A stretch of DNA of 38,997 bases from a bacterium (lineage in GTDB: Bacteria; Patescibacteriota; Patescibacteriia; UBA9934): positions 1-38,997 of the forward strand of contig JAQCKO010000010.1 of NCBI GenBank assembly GCA_027592325.1, in the 5' to 3' direction. Under the pieces are notes generated by a model. That model worked only from the letters and a program-made list of their open reading frames with translations, made no database searches and was not told where the DNA came from. The translations under genes and the position numbers were made by a program. This document shows positions 1 through 38,997 of this stretch, one piece after another. Position 1 is the stretch's first letter, and the number at the start of each line of letters is the position of its first letter.

Positions 1-920
1 AAGAACAGGACCACGACCGTGATCGGCTCGACCATGGCCGAGATCTGCTCCTTCACGCAGTCTGGCGCGAAGATGATCAGCAGGCATCCGCCGAGTACTG
101 GGTTCACTCCCATCCCAACGATGGCAATCGTCGAGAGCGCCATGATCGCCCACCAAAGCAGCACTGAATCGGCACGAATGATGTGCATGAAGTACTGCAC
201 TGGCTGACCCTTGATTTTAGTGTAATTCCCCCCTTCATCGAGACTAGCTACGAGCTGGACACGATTGGTGTAGGTCCCGCGCTCACCAATCATGTACGAT
301 AAGATCGTGAGCCCACCCCATAAAAAAAGAAGGGTGTAGCTCTCGAATGTCGTGTAGACAAGCGTCATGATCAGAAGACCTGCAACATCGTCTCCGATGC
401 CGAGACCTTCGAGCATGGACCCCTGGGTGTTCCGTTCGGTAGGCGTGCCGCCGGTACGGCTGATCTTCTGCGTCCCTACTGAGAAGGCAACATCGGTCGC
501 CATGGCAGGAATGCTGAGCGCTACGATGGCCAGCCAACTAACGTCCACGTAGCCGCCGAGCTTCGCCATCGTGAAGATGGCCGCTGTGAGTAGCGTCGGT
601 CCGACGACCCCCGCAAGCGTCATCGAGCCGAGCATATACCCCGACCGCTGAAGCTTGCTGATGGACACATGCGTCCCCAGGTGCGCGAAGAAGAACCAGA
701 GCATGCTATCTGCACCATGCTCGAGCAGTTCGACCCACTCATTGCCGTGCAGATGCACGTGCCAGATGTTCTCGATCAGATACCGCAACGGGACGCTGAC
801 CAAGAGCGCCACGAAGATCGACGGCATGTTCCTGTCGATGTTCACCAACCAGGAGCCGTTCGTCCCCCAGTACCGCTCAACCAATTTGCTTTCGGAACTC
901 AAGGGAACCTCCCTCCCCAT
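1..920 (-). CDS. NhaA-like Na+/H+ antiporter, partial (C-terminus runs off the window)
   Basis: Own translation of the minus strand gives ...WFFFAHLGTHVSISKL...IPAMATDVAFSVGTQ...GLGIGDDVAGLLIMTLVYTT..., matching the NhaA pattern (ATDIAF...; DD motif followed by AxxxIxLxYT). ATG at 920; a TTG at 902 behind GGGAGG is an alternative start. Open to the window edge. Confidence 0.7.
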   Translation of the reverse strand, partial: MGREVPLSSESKLVERYWGTNGSWLVNIDRNMPSIFVALLVSVPLRYLIENIWHVHLHGNEWVELLEHGADSMLWFFFAHLGTHVSISKLQRSGYMLGSMTLAGVVGPTLLTAAIFTMAKLGGYVDVSWLAIVALSIPAMATDVAFSVGTQKISRTGGTPTERNTQGSMLEGLGIGDDVAGLLIMTLVYTTFESYTLLFLWGGLTILSYMIGERGTYTNRVQLVASLDEGGNYTKIKGQPVQYFMHIIRADSVLLWWAIMALSTIAIVGMGVNPVLGGCLLIIFAPDCVKEQISAMVEPITVVVLF

Positions 921-24390: not shown

Positions 24391-26427
24391 CTATTTTGCG
24401 CTATTCATACTCTTCAGCTCCTTCTCAAGCTCGTCAATTTCATCACGAAGCAATGCAGCCGTTTCAAAGTTCAAATTCGCCGCCGCCTTTTTCATCTCGC
24501 GTTGCTTCTCTTTGATCACCACCTTCAGCTCGTGCGGTTCTGCTTTCAGCTCGAGCTTCAGAATATTTTTTGTATCATTTTCATCCGTTTTCGATCCCAT
24601 CATTTCACGAATGTCGTGTATCTCGCGTTTTATTGACATTGGCGTAATCCCATGCTGTTCATTATGCGATACTTGAATGTTCCGGCGACGATCGGTTTCT
24701 TTGATTGCACGCTTCAGCGAACCCGTCATAACATCAGCATAAAGAATCACTTGCCCATTAATATGACGTGCAGCTCGTCCAATGGTCTGTACAAGCGATG
24801 TTTCTGAGCGCAAAAAACCTTCTTTGTCGGCATCAAGAATTGCAACAAGAGAAACTTCCGGGAGATCAAGTCCCTCACGAAGAAGGTTCACCCCAACAAT
24901 GACATCGTAAACACCCTTTCGTAAGTCGGAAAGAATTTCTATGCGCTCAATAGTTTTGATGTCAGAATGAATATACTGCACCGAGATGCCAAGATCATCA
25001 AGGAATTTCGTGAGGTCTTCGGCCATTTTTTTTGTAAGCGTTGTCACTAGCACACGCTCCCCACGTTGTATTCGCTCCTGTATACGCGGAATGAGGTCGT
25101 CAACCTGTCCCGGTATGCCGTCGACTTCCGTAACGGGATGAATCACAATTTCGGGGTCTACAAGACCTGTTGGGCGCACAATCTGCTCAACAATTTGATT
25201 TGACGCATCAAGTTCGTAATCAGCAGGCGTTGCGGAAACATACAATGTCTGACCTGTCACCCGTTCGAATTCATTATAGGTAAGCGGACGATTGTCTTTC
25301 GCAGATGGAAGGCGAAATCCATGATCAACAAGTGTTTGCTTACGAGCCTGATCGCCGTTATACATCGCGCGAACCTGCGGCACGGTCACATGTGATTCAT
25401 CAATAATCGTCAAAAAATCCTCTGGGAAATACGACATGAGCGTATGTCCCGGCTCACCAGCATTACGTCCTTCAAAATGCCTGGAATAATTTTCAATGCC
25501 ATTACAATACCCAATACTCCTAATCATTTCGAGGTCATAACGCGTTCTTCGCTTCAGCCGCTCATACTCAAGAACCTTCCCTTCTTTCTCAAGTTCCTTC
25601 AGTCGCTCATCGAGCTCCCACTCAATTGACTGTAAGGCTTTCTCAACCTTATCTGATCCAATGACATAATGCTTGGCAGGAAAGATCCAAATATCATTAA
25701 GTGTATCGAGTACACGCCGCGTTACAGGATCGAGTTTGAAGATTTCAACAAGTATTCCCTCTTCAAAAACCAGACGATACATGGCAATTTCTCCCCCACC
25801 GTCTCCTGAGCGCCCGGACATAGGAATAATTTCGATGACATCGCCCCGCGCGCGGAATTGACCGCGCTGTACCGCGCCTTGGTTTCGTTCGAAATACATC
25901 TCAATCAGCCGACGAATAAAGTCCGCGCGGTCTATGCGATCACCGACTTTGCCATAAAACACCGTATTCTCGTACTCCTTCGGTGAACCAAGGCCATAAA
26001 TACACGAAACCGAAGCGACAATAATCACATCACGGCGCGAAAGTAGGGCCTGAGTAGCTGCATGGCGAAGCCGATCAATTTCCTCATTAATTTGCGCCTC
26101 TTTTTCAATATACGTATCAGACCGCGGCATATACGCTTCCGGCTGATAGTAGTCATAATACGAGACGAAATACTCAACGGCACTATCGGGAAAAAACTGC
26201 CGAAATTCATTACAAAGCTGCGCGGCAAGTGTTTTATTATGGGCAATCACAAGCGTTGGCCGCTGCACTTGTTGAATGACATTTGCCATCGTAAATGTTT
26301 TCCCAGAACCTGTTACACCAATTAATGTCTGTTTTTCGTACCCGCGACTCAAACCATCCACAAGCCCTTCGATGGCTTTTGGCTGATCTCCTGCAGGTGC
26401 ATATGGCGCTTTAAGTGTGAATTTCAT
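24391..26427 (-). CDS. uvrB: Excinuclease ABC subunit B
   Basis: [26 protein letters not shown]..., [28 protein letters not shown]-terminal UVR motif. Confidence 0.97.
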
Positions 26428-26622
26428 AAACACGAATAGTTCCCGAACCTTGCCTTATATAGCAGTACTATACGCGATTCGGGATCTGGTTTGTTCGGTT
26501 TGTGTTCAGTGTATCAGAGTTAAAAAATGGTGCAAGCCTTGGGTGGATAAATAATCGCGTATTGACGAACTGCCCATTTGGAGATAAAACATTAACCTGT
26601 TCATTCCCTACATGGAGCTCAC

Positions 26623-27063
26623 ATGTCTCCTAAAGAATTTGACCCGTCGGCGCTTTGGAAGCGGATCTGCACGCTCTTCAATCCAGGTCGCCTGATCTAC
26701 GTTCGCTTAAGTCGACACGATGGTACGGTTACTGTCTACCAGCCAGAGAAGCCTGATCGAGTTATCAATGTCACCGACATATTGTCGCCAGCGAAACAGA
26801 GCACAAGCAACATCGTAAGGTTTCTTCATACCTACTTGTGCCTCAAGCATGCTGTACGTTCGTCTGATGAGCTAGATATCGCCTTTCGTGCGATTCTCTC
26901 CGCCGACCGCCAATACCTGCACTTAGCATCTCGATTTGTGGACTGCACGAGTAAAACCGATCAGCTCGCTTGCCGACCTGTTTCTCGCACTGAAGCAGAT
27001 GATGCGGCAATCCTCGTCGTCTTCGTAACATTACGAAAGACGAGAGCCCCCCAAGCCACTTAA
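26623..27063 (+). CDS. hypothetical protein (146 aa)
   Basis: ATG behind TGGAG; upstream TTGACG-17-TAAAAC; followed directly by a terminator hairpin. Confidence 0.55.
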   Translation: MSPKEFDPSALWKRICTLFNPGRLIYVRLSRHDGTVTVYQPEKPDRVINVTDILSPAKQSTSNIVRFLHTYLCLKHAVRSSDELDIAFRAILSADRQYLHLASRFVDCTSKTDQLACRPVSRTEADDAAILVVFVTLRKTRAPQAT

Positions 27064-27084
27064 CGCGCGGGGGGTCTTTCATTT
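27035..27084 (+). terminator. Terminator hairpin containing the stop codon in its loop
   Basis: GAAAGA..CCCCCC...(taa)...GGGGGGTCTTTCATTT. Confidence 0.65.
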
Positions 27085-27240
27085 GTTAGCAGACGTTGAA
27101 CATGTTGGAATCGTTGAAAGCGTTAAATACGTTGGTTTCGAACAGATCTCTCACATTCGTTCAAGAATTAACAAGATTGTGAGCAAGCGAATACGGTTTT
27201 TACCGATTCCAACATGCGAACAAAGTGTGCGATCCAACCT

Positions 27241-27714
27241 TTATTCTCTAGAGAGCAATTCTTCTAGCACATCAATCGTCCCCGCAGGCACCTTCGTACG
27301 CCACGCATAGTCTCGCGCCTCAATAAGAGCACGAATTTCATTACTATCATGCCCGGGTACAGGCGAAATTTTTTGCGTCATTTGGCCCGCTTCTTCAAAT
27401 ATCGTCAGGTCTTCTTCCCGTCCCGACCAAAACACCGCATCTTCTGGCCAATCTGCCGCTTCAAGGAGCTTATCGACCCACTCCTCATGATCATCACAAT
27501 TTTGCACCACTTTAATATGTGCATCCGCGATATCTGCTGCAAGGAGTCCGGCTCCAATCATTTCACGTACCTGTTCTGCATTGAATACCTGCACATCTTC
27601 ATTCTTGCAAATCACAATCACCACCTTTTCGCAAGCACGCATCATGCCTTGAATAACCATTAAATGACCAGTATGAAATGGTTGAAATGTTCCTGGAAAA
27701 ATACCTGTCGGCAT
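27241..27714 (-). CDS. Nicotinamide-nucleotide adenylyltransferase-like (nucleotidyltransferase superfamily)
   Basis: GIFPGTFQPFHTGHLMVIQGMMRACEKVVIVI (HxGH); 157 aa. Confidence 0.8.
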   Translation of the reverse strand: MPTGIFPGTFQPFHTGHLMVIQGMMRACEKVVIVICKNEDVQVFNAEQVREMIGAGLLAADIADAHIKVVQNCDDHEEWVDKLLEAADWPEDAVFWSGREEDLTIFEEAGQMTQKISPVPGHDSNEIRALIEARDYAWRTKVPAGTIDVLEELLSRE

Positions 27715-27807
27715 AGGGTAATTCGTTAGGTGTTAACTGTGAGAGATCTATTCTTAACCAACGCGAGAGTGTCATCAACGCTTCCAATGAGGAGCAATGC
27801 ACCCTTC

Positions 27808-28740
27808 CTATATTCTACCGTCTCCTTTCCAAGCGCTAAGTGCATGACGTGCGGCCATCGGGAGCGCAGCGTGAACTGTCATTTCGTGAATTTGCATAGG
27901 AGGAATATCGAGATGCGTTAGCTCGATTGTACCAGCCTGAGACTCCTGTAATTTCGACAAATACCCAATATCATGTGGATCAATCCCCATGAGCGACGCT
28001 GCAACGGCATCGACAGCAATGGCATCGAACCCAGCAAGCGTCACACCAAGTTGCAACACTGTTCCGTCGATTGGCCCCTCGCCCTCCATGATTTGCTGAC
28101 CATCAACCAGCGAAAAATGTATCGGAATAAGCTGATACAATTTTGCCATCAATTCGTGCTGCTCTGCCGGTGCAAGCATGGCAATAAATGGCCAACGTGC
28201 ATACACACGTCCCTCTACACTATTTCGATGCGGCACAATCCACGTTCCATAGACCCAATTTTTTATCGAAAGCGAGGTACCATGATCGGTATCAACCTTC
28301 ATACCCTGTACGGAGATGCGCACATCGGCATCTGTGGCAAGTTTTGACTGTCTGACAACCACGTTTTGCCCGCTAGAAAGTGTAATCGTTTGCTCTACCG
28401 TTTCATCATCTTGCAAATCAACAAGCTGCACCCCCGGATACTCCTCGAGCAATTGCGCGTACCCGTAGTGCTCAAGGGCTCGTTTTGTTGATGTATACGA
28501 AGCATCCCCGATGAAAATGTTTGCCGGCGAATGCATATGCAGGACATCTAATATGCCCCGGACGGTATCAATGTGTGTTACCGCTTTTTCATTTGCGTGA
28601 TGAACCAAATTCACTTTAAGCAAAATCGTTTTTGCCGATTTTGTCTTTTCGATAAGTTCATCAGAAAACTCCTCAAGCGCCAGTTTCGATGCTGTTCGTC
28701 TATTCGTTTCTTCAATGACGGCTACTTTTGTTCTTTGCAT
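27808..28740 (-). CDS. DUF362 domain-containing protein
   Basis: KTILLKVNLVHHANEKAVTHIDTVRGILDVL...IFIGDAS...; 310 aa, no 4Fe-4S cysteines seen. Confidence 0.75.
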   Translation of the reverse strand: MQRTKVAVIEETNRRTASKLALEEFSDELIEKTKSAKTILLKVNLVHHANEKAVTHIDTVRGILDVLHMHSPANIFIGDASYTSTKRALEHYGYAQLLEEYPGVQLVDLQDDETVEQTITLSSGQNVVVRQSKLATDADVRISVQGMKVDTDHGTSLSIKNWVYGTWIVPHRNSVEGRVYARWPFIAMLAPAEQHELMAKLYQLIPIHFSLVDGQQIMEGEGPIDGTVLQLGVTLAGFDAIAVDAVAASLMGIDPHDIGYLSKLQESQAGTIELTHLDIPPMQIHEMTVHAALPMAARHALSAWKGDGRI

Positions 28741-28800
28741 GGGTAAAGATTAGCATAATGAAGAGTTTTGGGTATAGGGGTGTGGATTTAGGGAATATTA

Positions 28801-28849
28801 GCTTCGCTCCCGCGTGCAAGCACGCTCCGCTCGCCAGGATCCCTGTCCG
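28801..28849. repeat. 49-bp direct repeat copy 1
   Basis: gcttcgctcccgcgtgcaagcacgctccgctcgccaggatccctgtccg, identical at 28942-28990. Confidence 0.95.
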
Positions 28850-28941
28850 TTTGATTTAAACAAAAGGATATGACCTCACTCCTTTGAGCAAGCTCAACCG
28901 TTCGGCCGGATCCCTGTATACCGGACATGCGAGGGATATTG

Positions 28942-28990
28942 GCTTCGCTCCCGCGTGCAAGCACGCTCCGCTCGCCAGGATCCCTGTCCG
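28942..28990. repeat. 49-bp direct repeat copy 2
   Basis: Same 49 nt as 28801-28849, offset 141 bp. Confidence 0.95.
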
Positions 28991-29007
28991 GTTTTCCTTC
29001 GGAAAAC

Positions 29008-29022
29008 AGCACCTTCGGTGCT
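29008..29022 (-). terminator. Hairpin terminator downstream of tRNA-Gln
   Basis: Minus strand AGCACC-gaa-GGTGCT-GTTTT. Confidence 0.6.
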
Positions 29023-29023
29023 T

Positions 29024-29070
29024 GAACCAAGAAAAATACACCGGTTGTGCCGATGTATTTTTCTTGGTTC
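29024..29070. repeat. 17-bp perfect inverted repeat overlapping the tRNA-Gln 3' end
   Basis: GAACCAAGAAAAATACA (29024-29040) / TGTATTTTTCTTGGTTC (29054-29070). Confidence 0.97.
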
Positions 29071-29138
29071 CCGGACAGGGATTCGAACCCCGATTCTCAG
29101 GACCAAAACCTGATGTCCTGCCTTTAGACGATCCGGGA
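29065..29138 (-). tRNA. tRNA-Gln (anticodon TTG), CCA encoded
   Basis: Minus strand tcccggatcgtctaaaggcaggacatcaggttttggtcctgagaatcggggttcgaatccctgtccgggaacca; anticodon loop TTTTGGT. Confidence 0.95.
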
Positions 29139-29219
29139 GTAATATGAGCGTCGTGACATGGAATCAATGTCGTTATCGAACGCTCGGTCTAGATCTGCTT
29201 ACAAATCTTCCGAATTAGA

Positions 29220-29400
29220 ATGAATCTGTGGCAAGATCATACGAAAAAACGGTCTCGTTGTCAATGCAGAACAAGTACATCAACACGATCCAGAACAGCC
29301 GCATATTACCGTCGCCATAATTCACGGGCGTCAAAAAGAGGGTCGCCGCAAATCTGAGCCGCCGCATGAGGTGAGCGATGCAATCCTACTTCCCTCCTAA
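29220..29400 (+). pseudogene. possible small reading frame interrupted at an A6 run
   Basis: ATG 29220 frame gives MNLWQDHTKK; the +1 frame after A6 gives NGLVVNAEQVHQHDPEQPHITVAIIHGRQKEGRRKSEPPHEVSDAILLPS*. Confidence 0.3.
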
Positions 29401-30114
29401 GTCTTTTTTGAGCATCTCGAGTGCCTGTTTCGCATGTTCACGCCCGCCGAGCCCAAACGAAAGTCCGCCCGCAAGCGCGACCATCGCGATGAATCCTGTG
29501 AAAAGCACTTGAATGAGCGATTCAGCAATACCTAATTGCACAAGCGCAGCCATAAAGCTAAATACAATCACTGCCCACTTAGCGAGCCCTGAAATAAATC
29601 CCACACTTCGTACTTTGGTTGCATCCATTGCTCCTTGAATGACATCATGAACGAAATTTGCAAGCACCATTCCAACAAGCAAGATTACAACAGAAATGAC
29701 AACATTCGGGATATAACTGACAACATCGTTCAAAAAGATCGTTACCTGCTCCCACTGCAAAATGTCAGCTGCTCCAATAAGAGCAAAAATGATAATGAAC
29801 CATTTAATCAACCAGCCAAAAAAGTGAGCGACATCGAGTTTAATAGACACCTTTTCAAAAAAATGAATGACCTCGATTTTTTCAAGCAACTCATTTACCT
29901 TGAGCGCCGTTATAATGCGAACAATCGCCGCCTGCAAAATCATACCGATTAATATTCCAAGTAGCAGAACAACAAAAGCCATCACAAGCTGCGGTAAAAA
30001 AAGTGTGATATCTGCCCAAAGCTCTACGAATGCTGAGCGGAGCGTTTCAATGGATTGATCAATGGTTGTATCATTCATAAATTGGGTATTAGGTTTAGGT
30101 GCTTGGGATGACAA
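29386..30114 (-). CDS. CmpX/TM_helix-type mechanosensitive-channel-related membrane protein
   Basis: Repeated amphipathic TM units (VVLLLGILIGMILQAAIVRIITALKVNELLEKI; VVILLVGMVLANFVHDVIQ); no MscS beta domain seen. Confidence 0.8.
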   Translation of the reverse strand: MSSQAPKPNTQFMNDTTIDQSIETLRSAFVELWADITLFLPQLVMAFVVLLLGILIGMILQAAIVRIITALKVNELLEKIEVIHFFEKVSIKLDVAHFFGWLIKWFIIIFALIGAADILQWEQVTIFLNDVVSYIPNVVISVVILLVGMVLANFVHDVIQGAMDATKVRSVGFISGLAKWAVIVFSFMAALVQLGIAESLIQVLFTGFIAMVALAGGLSFGLGGREHAKQALEMLKKDLGGK

Positions 30115-30135
30115 GTCATCGATTCTTTCAATTGT

Positions 30136-30546
30136 TTACCGCTTACGCCCCAGCGCATCCTTTTTTGATGCTGTTACCTTTGGGGCGCTTGAATACGCCG
30201 GCAAAATAATCGTTCCTGTATATACTACCGCCAATCTGTCTAATTGGTCGATAGCATGTTGATCCGAAAGCTCCAGTGGCTTTTCGAGCGTATAAATTTT
30301 CATCTCTAGGAAGGTTCGCCAAGTATTCGCGATTGTGAGCACGCTTCTCAGTGCCGTGGGCGACCCTGGACCTGTCACAAGATACAATGCGTCAACAGCA
30401 TGCTTTGATACACCTACCTGAGACACGTAGGCATCAATAGCGCCGAGCCATGTTTCAGGTGCGCCTTTGTGAACATGGAGAGTTTGTGTCTCTACATTCG
30501 CCAAAATAAGCTGCTGAATGTCCTGCCCGTTTATATACAATTTCAC
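30136..30546 (-). CDS. TsaB-like protein (t6A synthesis), truncated
   Basis: ALYLVTGPGSPTALRSVLTIANTW resembles the TsaB GPGSFTGLR motif; ATGA overlap with the upstream gene. Confidence 0.65.
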   Translation of the reverse strand: MKLYINGQDIQQLILANVETQTLHVHKGAPETWLGAIDAYVSQVGVSKHAVDALYLVTGPGSPTALRSVLTIANTWRTFLEMKIYTLEKPLELSDQHAIDQLDRLAVVYTGTIILPAYSSAPKVTASKKDALGRKR

Positions 30547-31217
30547 AGACGTTGATCGAGTTCGTTATGAAGAACAATTTTTTCTGCACCTAATAGCTCA
30601 CCTAAAAATCGATCTTGAACCTCCGTTCGATAGCGATACTCCTCGCGTGGCATGAAGGTGTAATTCACCTCACGGCCAATATCTTTTTCAAATCCTTCCA
30701 TGATTTCTGCCAACAATTCAGTATTGATTTCACCCACCACCAACAAATCAGACGGCAAATTTTTCTTATCCACAAATCGACCTGTAAGGAACACAAGATC
30801 AATTTTTCCAACACCGGTGAGTTTTTCTAACAACGTACGATTCATGAGCACCGTTGCCTTTTTCATAATACTGCGCAATTCGACAAAAAACAGAAAATGC
30901 TTATTTGCGCGATAGTATTTCTTCGCGGCCCCTTTTTTATCGGGCTTTTCCCCTTTAACAATCGCTCCATCTACTTCATCGATAATCCCAATATCAATGA
31001 GATTTTTTAACTCACGTCGCACCGAGTTCAATTGTGCATCTATGCGGCGAGTGACCTCGCGAACATAGAATGCACGGTCTGGAGACTCCAAAAAGAGACT
31101 CAATAACCGACTTCGAGTTTTTGACCCAAAAAGCTGCTCAATACGGAAATCGGGGGCATTTGGCCGTAAATCCGTGATTTGCGTTGTTACTTCTGGTAAA
31201 GTGGCTTGTACTTGCAT
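30543..31217 (-). CDS. winged-helix transcriptional regulator
   Basis: LFGSKTRSRLLSLFLESPDRAFYVREVTRRIDAQLNSVRRELKNLIDIGII. Confidence 0.75.
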   Translation of the reverse strand: MQVQATLPEVTTQITDLRPNAPDFRIEQLFGSKTRSRLLSLFLESPDRAFYVREVTRRIDAQLNSVRRELKNLIDIGIIDEVDGAIVKGEKPDKKGAAKKYYRANKHFLFFVELRSIMKKATVLMNRTLLEKLTGVGKIDLVFLTGRFVDKKNLPSDLLVVGEINTELLAEIMEGFEKDIGREVNYTFMPREEYRYRTEVQDRFLGELLGAEKIVLHNELDQRL

Positions 31218-31261
31218 AGAATAATCGCTAACCCCTGAGTTATCATTACATTTAGTGTAGA

Positions 31262-33424
31262 ATGACCGTGCGAATTCGTAAAGAGATGATGAAGAATTCG
31301 GAACTATTTTTTAAGGCATCAAGCACCAGTCCCCCAGGTGAGAATAGGCTCACAAGGGCAATTCTGCTTCAAAGTCGCAGCCACCCGGTGCGTGTTTTTG
31401 GCGTGATGCGCTTTCTTGGAAAAGCCACGAAAGGAAAGGCAGCCGTAGTAAAAGCTATTGAAGATGCTCTTCAGCAATTTTTTGACGATTTACTTCTTGA
31501 GGGGAATCGTATGAGAAAGTTCGAGCATATGCTCGGTGAGCTGAATAAACAGATACAGGACATAGCGAGCACGCAGACATTACCCTCCGCTGATACTGAT
31601 ATGGTCATTGGATTTTCTGACGAAGGACAAGTCTTTGCCACCGGAACAGGGAGATTGCAAGCGCTCTTTATGCACAAAACAGCCGCGGAGCGATATACGC
31701 TCTATGAACTTGGCCAGCAATTTCCTGAACTCCCTGAGTGGACAAAATGTTTCTCCGTGATTTTAGATGGAGAGTGGCATGCAAGCGATATTTTTTATAT
31801 TGCTCCACGTATTCCTATTCGATATCTATCAAATGAGAGTCTCCAAGAAACCCTTGTGACATTACAGCCAGCTGGTGCGCTTAAGCGGATTGAGCAATTT
31901 CTTCCGGCAACAATGGATTTCGGATCAATTTGTCTAAAAGCATTACAGCCGACAGCCATCCATAGTCCAAAAAAATTGAATCCCATTGCCTCGATTAAGG
32001 AATTAGCGGGAACAAAAGAAACCACTGCTGGACTTCTTGGCGAAACCTCATTACGGCCAAGTGTACTTTACACAGCATTGCTCGAGATGCTCAAAAAGCC
32101 AGGCACAAGTGGCCCAAGCGCTATTTTACGCCGCGGCGTATTTCTTGCAACAAAAGGGATTGGCTTTTTCATTTCAATCCTGTTTGAAACCATAAAAGTG
32201 CTCGTAGGAGTTGCAGAGTCAATGGGAAAATGGGCCTTCCGCCAATACACCAAACGTCACTCACATAAAGCTCGTATTGATAAAACGAAAGCCCGCATAC
32301 AAGATACCGCACGTGCGATTCGCCACATGCCGGTATCGACCCGATACGCAATTGCAACATTTTTGATCTTGATTATTGCTGCAAGCTTCGGGTTTCGTAT
32401 GAAGGCAAACAATGCTGCCCGATTTGCTGAACGGGAACGTATTCAAACACAGCTCACCTTTGCACGTGAGCGTATGCAGTCCGCAGAAGCAAGTCTTATT
32501 TACGGAGACGATAACCAAGCAAATACACTCCTTACCGAGGCATTACTTGCGCTAGATGGTATATCGCCAGCCGATGAAAGTTTGCAGTCAGAGAAAAATG
32601 AGCTCGAGGGACGTTTACGCAATATTTCAAACAGCGCCAAAGGTATTACCACCATCGAGCTCGCAGCGATTGGGTCACTAGACGCAGCACATGGTCTCGT
32701 ACGTGCGATTGCAACACAAACAGGAACACCGTCCGTCATAACCGCCTCAGGCGCCGTGTATGCGCTAAATAGTCTTAATGATCGGTTTGAGCTGCAATAC
32801 GAATCAACGATTCCAAATGCGGTAAGTTTCCTTGAATCAACAAGCGATGTACTGATTATCGATGATACGCAACAGCTCTATATGCGCGTAAATGATACGA
32901 CCATCCCTATAACAAGTGGAACGAATCGTCTCCCAAGTGCTGATGGCATGGAGCTTTATGGAGATAATTTATACGTGCTGACCTCGGAGCAAGGGCAAAT
33001 TTATAAAATGCGACCTCAAGGTAATGGCTATGAAGCAGGGACACTTTGGATTACATCGAGTACCACAGAAACACGCGGCGCTGTCTCGCTTGCCATCGAT
33101 TCCGACATTTATGTTTTGATGCCGAATGAACTTCTGCGCTTCCGTTCTGGTCGTGAGCAAGGTTTTGAGACTGAAACGCTTGATCCGCCGCTTACAGCTG
33201 CGGTGCAGGTTTGGACGAATATTGATAGCAGCTATTTATATGTGCTCGAGCCTTCCGAGAAGCGTATTATCGTTTTCAATAAAGATGGGTCGATTGAGCG
33301 ACAATATGTAAGCGACGCTCTTGAAGGCGCGATTGGATTCAGCGTCAATGAATCCCGCGCACGCATGTACGTGACAACAGAAACCGATTTCTTCCAATTC
33401 ACGCCAGAGCATTTAGTGCCTTAG
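31262..33424 (+). CDS. 720-aa protein: PP2C-like cytoplasmic region, central TM, extracytoplasmic beta-propeller-like region
   Basis: VILDGEWHASDIFYIAPRIPIRYLSNESLQETLVTLQPAGALKRIEQFL resembles the C-terminal part of PP2C-type domains; TM YAIATFLILIIAASFGF; repeated beta-rich segments afterwards. Real start may be about ATG 31286-31289. Confidence 0.65.
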   Translation: MTVRIRKEMMKNSELFFKASSTSPPGENRLTRAILLQSRSHPVRVFGVMRFLGKATKGKAAVVKAIEDALQQFFDDLLLEGNRMRKFEHMLGELNKQIQDIASTQTLPSADTDMVIGFSDEGQVFATGTGRLQALFMHKTAAERYTLYELGQQFPELPEWTKCFSVILDGEWHASDIFYIAPRIPIRYLSNESLQETLVTLQPAGALKRIEQFLPATMDFGSICLKALQPTAIHSPKKLNPIASIKELAGTKETTAGLLGETSLRPSVLYTALLEMLKKPGTSGPSAILRRGVFLATKGIGFFISILFETIKVLVGVAESMGKWAFRQYTKRHSHKARIDKTKARIQDTARAIRHMPVSTRYAIATFLILIIAASFGFRMKANNAARFAERERIQTQLTFARERMQSAEASLIYGDDNQANTLLTEALLALDGISPADESLQSEKNELEGRLRNISNSAKGITTIELAAIGSLDAAHGLVRAIATQTGTPSVITASGAVYALNSLNDRFELQYESTIPNAVSFLESTSDVLIIDDTQQLYMRVNDTTIPITSGTNRLPSADGMELYGDNLYVLTSEQGQIYKMRPQGNGYEAGTLWITSSTTETRGAVSLAIDSDIYVLMPNELLRFRSGREQGFETETLDPPLTAAVQVWTNIDSSYLYVLEPSEKRIIVFNKDGSIERQYVSDALEGAIGFSVNESRARMYVTTETDFFQFTPEHLVP

Positions 33425-33665
33425 AGGTATCGGACAGCAAGTAGGTAGTGGCTTTTGGTATGTTATTGCGAGAAACGATTGGGTATACAGCGCCCACGAT
33501 GAAACGGTAACTTGCCGGTGCCTCGATTCGCCTCCGAAGCTCATCGAGCATCGGGGGCTTTCGTGTTTATAGGTAACTCGGTTACCGTTTCCAAATTTGG
33601 GGATAAATGCGAGCGCTAGCCAAAAAATACTCTATACTACATGCATAATTTGCTAACGTACTATT

Positions 33666-33887
33666 ATGAAGGGAGGGAATAATTCGCTACACATGCTCGC
33701 ATTTCTCCTCGTTATTGTCGGCGGACTTAACTGGGGTCTTTACGGTGCCTTCAATTTTAATCTCGTGGAAGCTATTTTTGGGGGCATGCCTTGGCTTGAA
33801 TCGTTCATTTATATTCTTGTTGGACTTGCAGCCATTTACAAGCTGCTCACTCATGGGAAGCACTGCAAGAGCTGTAAGATGGGATAA
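33666..33887 (+). CDS. DUF378 family small membrane protein
   Basis: LHMLAFLLVIVGGLNWGLYGAFNFNLVEAIFG...SFIYILVGLAAIYKLL. Confidence 0.92.
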   Translation: MKGGNNSLHMLAFLLVIVGGLNWGLYGAFNFNLVEAIFGGMPWLESFIYILVGLAAIYKLLTHGKHCKSCKMG

Positions 33888-33910
33888 CATCCCCAAAAAA
33901 CATCTTACAC

Positions 33911-33948
33911 AAATAAAAAAGAGGCTCTTGCGAGTCTCTTTTTTATTT
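33911..33948. terminator. Bidirectional terminator between the DUF378 gene and rplL
   Basis: AAATAAAAAAGAG-gctcttgcgagt-CTCTTTTTTATTT, perfect 13-bp arms. Confidence 0.9.
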
Positions 33949-33952
33949 GAAA

Positions 33953-34357
33953 CTATTTAATCGTTACTGACGCTCCAGCTTCTTCAAGCTGTTTCTTCAG
34001 CTCTTCAGCCTCTTCCTTTGAAGCACCTTCCTTTACCATGGTTGGAGCACCATCGACCATGTCTTTTGCTTCCTTAAGACCTTGTCCTGTAATGGCACGT
34101 ACAGCCTTGATCACATTGATCTTGCTGTCTCCTGCAGCAGTAAGTTCAACATCGAATGTTGACTTTTCTTCTTCTTCTGCACCTGCAGCACCTGGAGCAG
34201 CAGCCATCATCATTGCTGGAGCAGCTGCGCTCACGCCAAATTTATCTTCAAGTACTTTTACAAGTTCTGAAAGATCGATAACAGACATCTTTTCGATCTC
34301 TTCTACGAGGGCCTTGAACTTTTCAGGGACCTCAACAATCTTTGTTTCTTCTGACAT
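33953..34357 (-). CDS. rplL: 50S ribosomal protein L7/L12
   Basis: [23 protein letters not shown]...[33 protein letters not shown]. Confidence 0.98.
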
Positions 34358-34415
34358 AGGATTGATTATGATTTATGGGTTTTGATTAGTGAACTCGGCT
34401 AATTGCTAACAGCTA

Positions 34416-34946
34416 TTAAGCCTCTTTTTGATCACGGATCGCGCCAAGCGCGGTAACAAGTCCACGCAAATTTCCTGCAAGAACGTTCACGAATCCAGAA
34501 ACTGGAGCGTTGATCGATCCAACTAGCTGTGCGTAGAGCTGCTCCTTCGATGGAAGAGCCGCGAGCTTATTCACTTCATCGGCACTGATTGCCTTTCCTT
34601 CGAGTACACCTGCAACGGCGGTAAGCACATCATTGTTTGCTGTACCGAACTCTTTTACAAGTTTTGCCGCAGATACTTCATCGTCCATTGAGAAGGCAGT
34701 AAGGATTGAGCCTTGAAGCACTTTTGCATCGAAATCTTCAATGCCAGCTTCCTTCGCAGCGATTGCAAGAAGGGTCTTCTTTGCAACCATCACCTCTACA
34801 CCTTGCTCTTTGGCCTTTTGACGAAGCTCGTCAGATTGAGGCATGGTCAGTCCCGATACTTGAGCAAATGCCGCTGCTTTCATTGAACCGAATTTCTCGG
34901 TCAGAGATGAAGCGATTTCTGCTTTTTGCGCTCGGGATTTTGCCAT
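34416..34946 (-). CDS. rplJ: 50S ribosomal protein L10
   Basis: MAKSRAQKAEIASSLTEKFGSMKAAAFAQVSGLTMPQSDELRQKAKEQGVEVMVAKKTLL; upstream of rplL. Confidence 0.95.
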   Translation of the reverse strand: MAKSRAQKAEIASSLTEKFGSMKAAAFAQVSGLTMPQSDELRQKAKEQGVEVMVAKKTLLAIAAKEAGIEDFDAKVLQGSILTAFSMDDEVSAAKLVKEFGTANNDVLTAVAGVLEGKAISADEVNKLAALPSKEQLYAQLVGSINAPVSGFVNVLAGNLRGLVTALGAIRDQKEA

Positions 34947-35156
34947 AAGCGTTTATTAATGAGTCACCAAAATGGCAACTTCTTTTTAAGTAAGGGTCGA
35001 TTTATAAATAAAACGACCTCCGGTCTAAAAACCGCAGGCGGATGCCAGCTTCCAGAACATTCTGGAGTGAACCTCGGCAAGACTTACCCCATGCGGGAAC
35101 TTGCGTTCTTCGGTTTCAGACGGTGGAAGAATATCACGAGAGGCTAAAAATGTCAA
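34947..35156 (-). promoter_or_regulatory. rplJ promoter and structured 5' leader (candidate L10 leader)
   Basis: Minus strand TTGACA-17-TATTCT (35156-35128), then about 175 nt with hairpins CCAGAA-tg-TTCTGG and CCGC-ct-GCGG. Confidence 0.65.
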
Positions 35157-35345
35157 GAAATCGTACAGGTTTCAGTTTTCAGGTGTCAGATAACGTGGCT
35201 GTTCTGTAACCTGTTACCTGTGAGCTGAAACCTGAATCCCCTTGCCCTCTCATGGTAATCATGGCACGCTTTATATGATCGCAATCCGGCGGTTACGTTA
35301 AAAATCAGGCCCTGGAGGCCAATGGCAAATTCTTAGGAGGAAGCC

Positions 35346-35564
35346 GTGCAGTTCATTCTCATCGAAACAAGATATAACCTATTACTACAGGCCGTCCGTC
35401 AGAACGGTGTTGTGCGAGGCACACTCGTTCTACTGAACGAAGATCAGATCTTCAGCAGCCGTACACGAACATTCATTCTTAATCACTCTCTCGGGTGGAC
35501 AACGAATGAAGACCTCGTGCGCATTCTGCTGCGGGCACATGCCCAATGCTCTGTAGCTATGTAA
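35346..35564 (+). CDS. hypothetical small protein (72 aa), GTG start
   Basis: AGGAGG at correct spacing before GTG; MQFILIETRYNLLLQAVRQNGVVRGTLVLLNEDQIF...; terminator follows. Confidence 0.6.
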   Translation: MQFILIETRYNLLLQAVRQNGVVRGTLVLLNEDQIFSSRTRTFILNHSLGWTTNEDLVRILLRAHAQCSVAM

Positions 35565-35573
35565 GCTCTCCGT

Positions 35574-35606
35574 CCCCCTCGGCCTCTGCCGGGGGTGTAC
35601 TCTTTT
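35574..35606 (+). terminator. Rho-independent terminator
   Basis: CCCCCTCGGC-ctct-GCCGGGGG followed by TGTACTCTTTT. Confidence 0.7.
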
Positions 35607-35641
35607 ATATCGTTAATTTATACAGAAGCCCTTCTCTGCCC

Positions 35642-35670
35642 TTGACATAAATATGAAAACACGCTAATCT
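35642..35670 (+). promoter_or_regulatory. Strong promoter without a downstream ORF
   Basis: TTGACA-17 nt-TAATCT. Confidence 0.7.
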
Positions 35671-35676
35671 TTCGTC

Positions 35677-35746
35677 GGGCAGGCAAGCCTACAAAAAAAA
35701 CCTCCCTCCCTCCCCCGCGTATGAGAATGCGCGGGGCCCTTTTTTT
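35677..35746 (+). ncRNA. candidate small RNA (about 70 nt) with CCTCC-rich tract and intrinsic terminator
   Basis: Promoter at 35642-35670; A8 + CCTCCCTCCCTCC at 35693-35713; hairpin CCCCGCGTAT-gaga-ATGCGCGGGG then CCCTTTTTTT. Confidence 0.5.
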
Positions 35747-35764
35747 ATTATAGACAGGTAAACG

Positions 35765-36277
35765 TCAAGCAATAGATCTAAACCACTCTGGCTGATGGTA
35801 GTCCGGTACTCTCCCTGGCACCTCGAACGCAGCCAGATAACGACGATTTTCGCTCGAACCATGAATAGCGTAAGCATTTCCTATCCATGGCGCTTTTGGT
35901 AGCCAAATGAGCGGCACGTTTGCTTTACCCATCCATCGATTACCCTCAATCTTTGCCTCATATTTTACAAATGGAATTGGGTCGCCACTGCGCTCGCGCA
36001 CCCCATCAAATTTCAGAAAGAGATAGTGCCCATGCGGACCAAATTCAAACTCAACATACTGTTCCCGCGCTTCTTGATTCGCCAAAAACAACTCCACTAC
36101 TTCAAACTCCCAAAGCCCGTCCATTGACCCTGCCTGTGCAGCAGGAGCCGGATCGTTGTGAAAAGGCGCGTCGATACGAATTTCAAGATTTATCTCGGTC
36201 AGATTCAGTTCGATCGAAACATGCTCGTCTTGCTCAATAGGCACACCGTCCCAGGTTTTGTGTATTTTGATGGTCAT
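35765..36277 (-). CDS. UPF0462 (C4orf33)-like, CBM9/DOMON-like protein
   Basis: TWDGVPI...APFHNDPAPA...LWEFEVVELFLAN..EQYVEFEFGPHGHYLFL...AIHGSSENRRYLAAFEVPG..PDYHQPEWFRS. Confidence 0.7.
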   Translation of the reverse strand: MTIKIHKTWDGVPIEQDEHVSIELNLTEINLEIRIDAPFHNDPAPAAQAGSMDGLWEFEVVELFLANQEAREQYVEFEFGPHGHYLFLKFDGVRERSGDPIPFVKYEAKIEGNRWMGKANVPLIWLPKAPWIGNAYAIHGSSENRRYLAAFEVPGRVPDYHQPEWFRSIA

Positions 36278-36960
36278 GAAAGAATTGTTCCCTTGAAGTC
36301 CTCCCCTTCAATAAGTCCACGGATATTCTCTAAGTCATCTCCATTTACAATCGCGACGGAAATCCCCTCTTCATCACAAAGCTTAGATGCAATAGGGTCA
36401 AATGGCGCCGACATTCCCGGATCCCATTCTTCACCCACCATTGTTCGATACTCTTCCCAGCTCATAACTTCTCGTTTTTCTGCATGAGGATTTTTCCGCG
36501 GATCGTCGGTATACACGTAATCAATATTTGATGCATTGATGACCATTCCCGTATCAAGATTTTTTGCCATCACGCTTGCTACATAATCAGTTGACCATCC
36601 TGGCTTCCATCCAGCCGCTATAAGTACATCGCCATCCCACTCCTCTGGTATATGATGCGGATTCTTAATCACAACCGAATGTGCAATGTCTCTCAAAATG
36701 GTTCGCACCAGATGTCCATTCAGGCGTGTTGAGTGAATCCCGAGCCAGTCTAAATCTTCCGGATGCAGCGAATCAACCACCTCACTCGCAGCAGAAATAT
36801 AGTGACGCGCTGTTTTTCCTCCTCCACAGACCAAAATCAATCGCTTCCCCGAATTCACAACTTGCTCAGAGAATAGTTTTAAAGCCGAAAGAAACTTCAC
36901 GCTTGGTCCCCCATTTGGCACAATCATTGATCCTCCGATAGATATTATCACTGTCTTCAT
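36274..36960 (-). CDS. pyrH: UMP kinase, short archaeal-like form (amino acid kinase family)
   Basis: IISIGGSMIVPNGG...LILVCGGGKTARHYI...IDYVYTDDPRKNPHAEK...; 228 aa. Confidence 0.8.
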   Translation of the reverse strand: MKTVIISIGGSMIVPNGGPSVKFLSALKLFSEQVVNSGKRLILVCGGGKTARHYISAASEVVDSLHPEDLDWLGIHSTRLNGHLVRTILRDIAHSVVIKNPHHIPEEWDGDVLIAAGWKPGWSTDYVASVMAKNLDTGMVINASNIDYVYTDDPRKNPHAEKREVMSWEEYRTMVGEEWDPGMSAPFDPIASKLCDEEGISVAIVNGDDLENIRGLIEGEDFKGTILS

Positions 36961-36975
36961 ACATTTCCTGTTTAT

Positions 36976-36998
36976 AAAAAAAGAAGGCTTTCGCCTTC
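36976..36998 (-). terminator. Terminator of the phage-holin-family gene
   Basis: Minus strand GAAGGC-gaaa-GCCTTC-TTTTTTT. Confidence 0.85.
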
Positions 36999-37001
36999 CC
37001 T

Positions 37002-37361
37002 CTACCTGTTTACATGGGGTTTCTGTTTTTTAAGCATGGCATTTGTGAGCACACTTGTTGCCCAGAGAATAATGGCTGCAGCGAGCGCCGGCACAAACCC
37101 ATCGACGGTAAATCCTTCTAGGAATGTGCTTGCAACCCAGAGAATGAGTGCGTTTATCGCAAGCACAGATAGTCCGAGCGTAAGAACAGTAATCGGCAGT
37201 GTTAACACGATTAGCAGCGGACGGACAATCGCATTCAAAAGCCCAACCACGAGGGCAACAATGAGGGCAAAGTAGAAGCTCTCCACAACGAAACCAGGAA
37301 TGATCTGCGTTATTGCGAGAAGCGCCGCGCTATTGATAATCCATCTTGCAAATATTCGCAT
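37002..37361 (-). CDS. phage holin family 4 / YvlD-like membrane protein
   Basis: IVALVVGLLNAIVRPLLIVLTLPITVLTLGLSVLAINALILWVAS. Confidence 0.85.
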   Translation of the reverse strand: MRIFARWIINSAALLAITQIIPGFVVESFYFALIVALVVGLLNAIVRPLLIVLTLPITVLTLGLSVLAINALILWVASTFLEGFTVDGFVPALAAAIILWATSVLTNAMLKKQKPHVNR

Positions 37362-37400
37362 AATTGACGTCAGGATAGCAACTCACACAATAGGCGTCAA

Positions 37401-37619
37401 CTATGATTCATCATCCGTAATCTGTTGAAACTCCGCCTTGAGCTCGGTAACTTTGTGCTCAACTTCCGCAAGCTTTTTTTTACAGATTTGCGCGAGTTTA
37501 AGACCGCGTTCGAATTTCTTAATGCCTTCATCAAGATCAACATCTTCACGTTCGAACCACTCCGTCAGCTCTTCAAGTTCTTGAAAGGCTGCAGAAAAAT
37601 TTGGGGATGTTTTTGGCAT
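37401..37619 (-). CDS. xseB: Exodeoxyribonuclease VII small subunit
   Basis: FQELEELTEWFEREDVDLDEGIKKFERGLKLAQICKKKLAEVEHKV; next to xseA. Confidence 0.93.
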   Translation of the reverse strand: MPKTSPNFSAAFQELEELTEWFEREDVDLDEGIKKFERGLKLAQICKKKLAEVEHKVTELKAEFQQITDDES

Positions 37620-37668
37620 AGGATATAAAGGAAGAATTTAGTGATTAGGATTGGATCTTTGATTTCCA

Positions 37669-38946
37669 CTACAACAATTGCTCTTGCGCTCGCCGTCCTG
37701 TCACGGCTTCGATTTCTCCTCCAGCGAGCTGAATCCGTATATCGGCTCCGTCTGAAATAGCTACAGGGTCTGTGACGATATCTGATCCTTTGCGGACGAT
37801 GGCAAAACCACGGCGAAGTGTATGCTGTACGTCAAAACTTGAGAACAGGCGCATGAGTGCCTCGGTCTTTGCCTTCCTATACTGCCACAGCGCATCGAAC
37901 CTGGCGAGTAACGATTTTTCCCGCGCTTCAATATGCGTGCGCGTTTGAATGAGGCTGAGACGAAATCGATCAAAGGCATAAACAAAGCGCTCAATGGTCA
38001 TTCGTAGCGTATGCATGCGTTCTGAAATGAACCGCTCTAAAATCATTCTCGTGCGATCGATGCTTCGCTGCCGACGTGTGAGTTCAAAACGCAACTGATC
38101 CTCCATGCGTCGCACCGACATGTAAAGCTCACGGTGAATATCTTCCTTATCTGGCACCACACGCTCTGCGGCATTACTTGGCGTCGATGCACGAACATCT
38201 GCGACAAAGTCGGCCAATGATTCATCACGTTCATGTCCTACCCCAACGACGACTGGAATTTTTGAAGTAAAAATAGCGCGCGCAACTTGCTCGTTATTGA
38301 AGGCATGTAAGTCTTCGAGTGAACCCCCTCCACGCGTAAGCACAATGACGTCTGGTCGATTCGCTTCATTGAGGTGATTGAAACGCTCGAACGCCCCAAG
38401 AATATCATTTACAGCATGCTGACCCTGCACATGCACATGTGCGTGTACAACCTCAACCCCGCTCCAACGATTCGTCAAAATGCGCATGAAATCGCCATAC
38501 GCCGCTGCCTCACGCGAGGTGATGAGACCGATTTTTGCCGGAAAGCGTGGAATAGAACGTTTACGCGCACCATCAAATAATCCTTCACTGTCCAGTTTTT
38601 CTTTCAGAAGAGCATACGCCTTTGCAAGCGCTCCCTCCCCCACAAGCTCAATTGTCTTAACTGTAAGTGAAAATTTTCCAAATCGTTCATACACCTTTGC
38701 TTGCCCCATCACCTCAACCTTCATCCCTGCATCGAGTGGAATGTGAACGGAATATGTCGTCGTAAAACAGGAAATCTTTACATCTTTGTCTTCGTCTTTC
38801 AAGTCAAAATTAATCCACTTTCCTTGGCTCACCCTGTATTCAACAATCTCTCCTACAACCCGAATACGCTCTGCCGGAATGGTCGCAAGGGTTCCATTTA
38901 CAAGGTCAACATATTCCGAAACAGTGAATTTTTGCGCGTCTTCCAT
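37669..38946 (-). CDS. xseA: Exodeoxyribonuclease VII large subunit
   Basis: OB-fold N-term; IGLITSREAAAYGDFM, DVIVLTRGGGSLEDLHAFNNEQVARAIFTSKIPVVVGVGHERDESLADFVADVRASTPSNAAE. Confidence 0.97.
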   Translation of the reverse strand: MEDAQKFTVSEYVDLVNGTLATIPAERIRVVGEIVEYRVSQGKWINFDLKDEDKDVKISCFTTTYSVHIPLDAGMKVEVMGQAKVYERFGKFSLTVKTIELVGEGALAKAYALLKEKLDSEGLFDGARKRSIPRFPAKIGLITSREAAAYGDFMRILTNRWSGVEVVHAHVHVQGQHAVNDILGAFERFNHLNEANRPDVIVLTRGGGSLEDLHAFNNEQVARAIFTSKIPVVVGVGHERDESLADFVADVRASTPSNAAERVVPDKEDIHRELYMSVRRMEDQLRFELTRRQRSIDRTRMILERFISERMHTLRMTIERFVYAFDRFRLSLIQTRTHIEAREKSLLARFDALWQYRKAKTEALMRLFSSFDVQHTLRRGFAIVRKGSDIVTDPVAISDGADIRIQLAGGEIEAVTGRRAQEQLL

Positions 38947-38997
38947 ATTGGGTAGGTTAGCATAGGTTGTAGGTGGTCGGTAGTGGGTTGTATGTGG

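Follow-up and report, generated by a model that had tools for sequence, protein, structure and literature searches.

Does the short gap between two convergent genes encode a small RNA aimed at ribosome binding sites, or does it hold a transcription terminator and nothing more? The question arises in an 826-kb Candidatus Uhrbacteria-like metagenome-assembled genome, whose contig 7 constitutes the window, i.e., the whole 38,997-nt stretch of DNA analysed here. The putative RNA unit sits between a 72-aa plus-strand ORF (35346–35564), for which relatives were sought and none found, and a convergent 170-aa minus-strand gene (35765–36277). The original prediction had described TTGACA-17-TAATCT, an ORF-free stretch, A8, the tract CCTCCCTCCCTCC, a 10-bp hairpin and T7 in this gap, and all of these are present where it had placed them.

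The proposed promoter combines a perfect TTGACA −35 box (35642–35647, plus strand) with the −10 box TAATCT (35665–35670) after a 17-nt spacer. Since TAATCT matches TATAAT at three of six positions, a standard scan misses the promoter at 35642–35670; applied to 25000–38997, such a scan returned two other TTGACA-17 sites, one ahead of a tRNA gene and one ahead of the L10 leader and gene. The same hexamer serves as −10 box in several other TTGACA-17 promoters of this genome. Genome-wide, TTGACA-N17-TANNNT was matched 74 times vs. 4 times for the reversed control. In a 204-kb sample with 88 TTGACA hexamers, TANNNT followed after 17 nt in 19 cases, whereas the other spacings between 8 and 27 nt yielded about 1.3 each on average, neither 16 nor 18 nt being enriched. 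From the genome-wide and spacing counts we estimate that ~93–95% of TTGACA-N17-TANNNT sites exceed what composition would produce, i.e., a false rate of the pattern of ~5–7% in this genome. On these statistics the TTGACA-17-TAATCT promoter is very likely real. Further examples of the rigid 17-nt signature occur at 29236–29264, 35128–35156 and 944–972 of the window, all on the minus strand, and the signature offers a simple way to locate other noncoding transcription units in the same genome. The L10 ribosomal protein leader itself (35000–35131, minus strand) contains an attenuator-like hairpin and scored 25.8 bits against RF00557, below the curated cut-off of 44.

Transcription from this promoter would yield an RNA of ~70 nt (35677–35746, plus strand), the probable first base being G 35677, and no plus-strand ORF of at least 40 aa lies within it. 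It would begin with the G-rich sequence GGGCAGG (35677–35683) and continue into A8 (35693–35700), which is unpaired in the predicted fold and reads as T8 on the minus strand. The adjoining CCTCCCTCCCTCC tract (35701–35713) is complementary to GGAGG-type ribosome sites and occurs once in the 826-kb genome; being a 4-base repeat, it could have arisen by slippage. The hairpin CCCCGCGTAT-GAGA-ATGCGCGGGG (35713–35736; 10 bp including one G-U, GAGA loop) is separated by CCC from the T7 termination tract (35740–35746). Folded alone it reaches about −19 kcal/mol (z −4.6) and ranks seventh by energy in a sample of 946 T runs examined. When 73 distinct promoters of the genome were traced for up to 600 nt, the promoter at 35642 had the nearest strong ORF-free terminator of them all.

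The hairpin is asymmetric with respect to strand. On the plus strand it folds with −18.6 kcal/mol and lies 3 nt from T7, whereas the minus-strand stem is weaker (−12.7 kcal/mol) and separated from T8 by 12 G-rich bases. Its sequence thus appears well suited to plus-strand termination and poorly suited to minus-strand termination, and the unequal distances (3 vs. 12 nt) differ from those of a symmetric bidirectional terminator, in which a U tract directly follows the hairpin on both strands. The presence of a promoter, an ORF-free gap and a terminator favouring the plus strand makes an RNA of ~70 nt probable. Its own promoter, its own terminator and the lack of an ORF, as expected of an orphan intergenic sRNA gene, are thus all found at the level of sequence, and a separate ~70-nt unit is the simplest reading; we consider it likely to be transcribed.

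The same hairpin could nevertheless be a mere terminator in a convergent gap, acting as a second terminator for the plus-strand gene at 35346, as the terminator of the minus-strand gene at 35765–36277, or as both; the promoter match would then be due to chance and the C tract would be a functionless, slipped 4-base repeat. Flanked by A8 and T7, the hairpin would be followed by a U tract in either direction, and the gap holds no other obvious terminator for the minus-strand gene. A first hairpin beyond the upstream ORF (35576–35595, plus strand) is probably that ORF's own terminator but has a weak T tract ~7 nt further on, and the absence of detectable conservation among relatives (see below) also fits. 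Against this explanation stand the low false rate of the promoter pattern and the 12 G-rich bases between the minus-strand stem and T8, which are unusual for an intrinsic terminator, and we regard it as rather unlikely.

Those G-rich bases could themselves have a function: on the minus strand GGGGGAGGGAGGGAGG, which precedes T8, might form an RNA G-quadruplex that, together with T8, either terminates the minus-strand mRNA or stabilises its 3′ end. Four G runs, each separated by a single A, lie directly upstream of T8; the final run, however, comprises just two G, and an ordinary hairpin is present just upstream. The fold tools used do not model quadruplexes, and no second case came to notice. 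Overall we consider a quadruplex at this position very improbable.

A short RNA might instead act locally, either as an antisense RNA against the 3′ end of the mRNA from the convergent minus-strand gene or through transcriptional interference with that gene, leaving the C tract unused in trans. If that mRNA ends at T8 (35693–35700), the RNA would overlap most of its 3′ UTR, but it stops short of the coding part of the gene. Furthermore, no similar element was found downstream of relatives of the minus-strand gene, though contexts differ there, and we deem local action improbable.

We tentatively favour, at less than even confidence, a small orphan gene for a ~70-nt noncoding RNA that would block G-rich Shine-Dalgarno sequences in a small number of mRNAs. 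Sequence statistics back the promoter and the terminator, whereas transcription, pairing and repression are inferred as follows. The housekeeping sigma factor would initiate at ~35677 and the RNA would end after the hairpin and U7 at 35746; the segment composed of A8 and CCUCCCUCCCUCC would then pair, without Hfq, with its mRNA targets, and ribosome binding to these would be blocked. Whether the tract is exposed, as had been claimed, depends on the start base in the predicted fold. With a start at 35679 the tract is open (mean unpaired probability of 0.97), whereas with a start at 35677 it is partly paired (0.60), the first CCUCCC repeat being covered by the G-rich 5′ end.

Several characteristics of the genome bear on such a role. 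The 16S rRNA tail GGATCACCTCCTTTC retains CCTCC, so CCUCC in a small RNA could imitate the sequence with which the ribosome itself pairs. GGAGG is present in 11% of start regions vs. 1.3% of coding controls, and Hfq was looked for in the genome and not found. An RNA acting on Shine-Dalgarno sites would be plausible in this setting. The gene at 35346, which the original prediction had suggested as a target, was rejected as a special target: its leader pairs with −13.8 kcal/mol, no better than the average leader (mean of −13.5 kcal/mol). Of the earlier idea of a ~70-nt sRNA, the unit itself is thus supported by the promoter statistics, the lack of an ORF and the orientation of the terminator; its anti-Shine-Dalgarno role is plausible, and its suggested target is not supported.

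Better candidates emerge from exact complementarity. Apart from the tract itself, GGAGGGAGG is found at five sites in the genome, two of which are ribosome sites that precede the start codon by exactly 5 nt and follow closely on a TTGACA-17 promoter. One (C9:21150) belongs to a 111-aa ORF of unknown family; the other (window 908–916, minus strand) precedes TTG 902 and is part of GGGAGGGAGGTT (906–917, minus strand), which lies at the ribosome site of a Na+/H+ antiporter-like gene and is the window's best target candidate. This sequence is a perfect 12-base complement to sRNA bases 35699–35710. The gene, located at the left end of the window, starts at TTG 902–900 or ATG 920–918, and its match to the Na+/H+ antiporter family PF06965 is weak, although above the cut-off (24.7 vs. 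23.5 bits). The 12-base complement was reached by none of 300 plain shuffles, but by 18 of 1500 (1.2%) and 15 of 400 (3.8%) controls that keep CCTCC; roughly a quarter of the genome was covered by these exact-complement counts. Any C-rich sequence will match Shine-Dalgarno sites, and this accounts for part of the target signal. The antiporter-like leader is a suggestive candidate from a post hoc target search, and this leader may also fold over its own ribosome site.

The inferred RNA had no Rfam match at the gathering score nor at E up to 5; a ClpQY_promoter match of 16.8 bits (cut-off 42) covered the hairpin only and was dismissed. In Bacillota, C-rich regions of RoxS/RsaE, FsrA and CsfG pair with mRNA targets, and Hfq has no global role there (PMC8216469). 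The candidate has a C-rich region that may pair with mRNAs, its unpaired probability depending on the start base as described, but carries three overlapping CCUCC units in a single linker and one terminator hairpin, belongs to another phylum and is not recognised by the RoxS/RsaE covariance model. The Cuckoo or alpha-r14 RNAs of Rhizobiales (SmelA075, SmelA099, NfeR1) consist of three or four hairpins, each with an unpaired CCUCCUCCC (PMC3927594, PMC10746234). They share with the candidate an anti-Shine-Dalgarno motif that is repeated where the RNA is predicted to be unpaired; here, however, CCUCCUCCC is absent, and the repeat, CCUCCCUCCCUCC with its CCUCCC units, occupies one linker beside one GAGA-loop hairpin.

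Homologues of the intergenic region were found neither in 59 relatives nor in the other 22 genomes of the family, which gave chance-level matches of 15–27 bases only; no relative was detected in the family or order. Likewise, no viral contig carried the 19-base core. A search for the promoter plus CCTCCNNCC in the leader in 73 genomes of the order returned 11 matches vs. 2 for the reversed control, and most of the 10 outside this genome lead into protein genes. Among the 72 other genomes, a single match, in another genus (L150; G041:C1, minus strand, ~1561–1450), reaches a terminator without an intervening gene: located between enolase and a tRNA-Ser gene, it comprises a promoter, CCTCCATCC, A5, a hairpin and T6. 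Its part order and sequence differ and its hairpin may be no more than the terminator of the enolase mRNA; we rejected it as a homologue and regard this loosely similar unit as an analogue at best. The unit at 35677–35746 may be genus-specific, or it may reflect chance plus a terminator.

In its broadest form the proposal is doubtful: an Hfq-independent anti-Shine-Dalgarno sRNA of Patescibacteria with repeated CCUCC would repress the antiporter-like gene and a few genes with GGAGGGAGG leaders, and would possibly be among the earliest trans-acting riboregulators known from these bacteria. A narrow literature search turned up no work on trans-acting small RNAs of Patescibacteria, and a candidate that can be tested on a named target would make riboregulation in their minimal genomes a question open to study.

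Other promoter-led loci of the genome were also noted. A ~250-nt highly structured stretch (L083; G000:C1, minus strand, promoter 2307–2335; −119 kcal/mol) ends in a strong terminator, has no Rfam, tRNA or tmRNA match and represents a candidate noncoding RNA. A second short promoter-terminator unit of ~85 nt (L117; G000:C9, minus strand, promoter 29169–29197) is ORF-free and has no Rfam match above cut-off, while a further presumed noncoding unit (L115) turned out to be a tRNA gene.

Some observations concern the flanking genes. The 170-aa protein (L050) has no Pfam or NCBIfam match, and its relatives are present in part of the order; no near relative was found among the genome contigs with the neighbouring protein that were examined. 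Its best relative found derives from a Myxococcales metagenome-assembled genome (48%), closer than the ~28–36% that this search gave for Uhrbacteria, a pattern suggestive of gene transfer. The UMP kinase encoded at 36274–36960 (minus strand) scores above the cut-off of the archaeal-type model TIGR02076 and does not fit the bacterial one. Degenerate, seven-base-spaced spacers (AACCTGAAACCTGAA, CCTCCAACCTC) occur between genes at 35165–35240 of the window, at G000:C18:29183–29208 and at L035.
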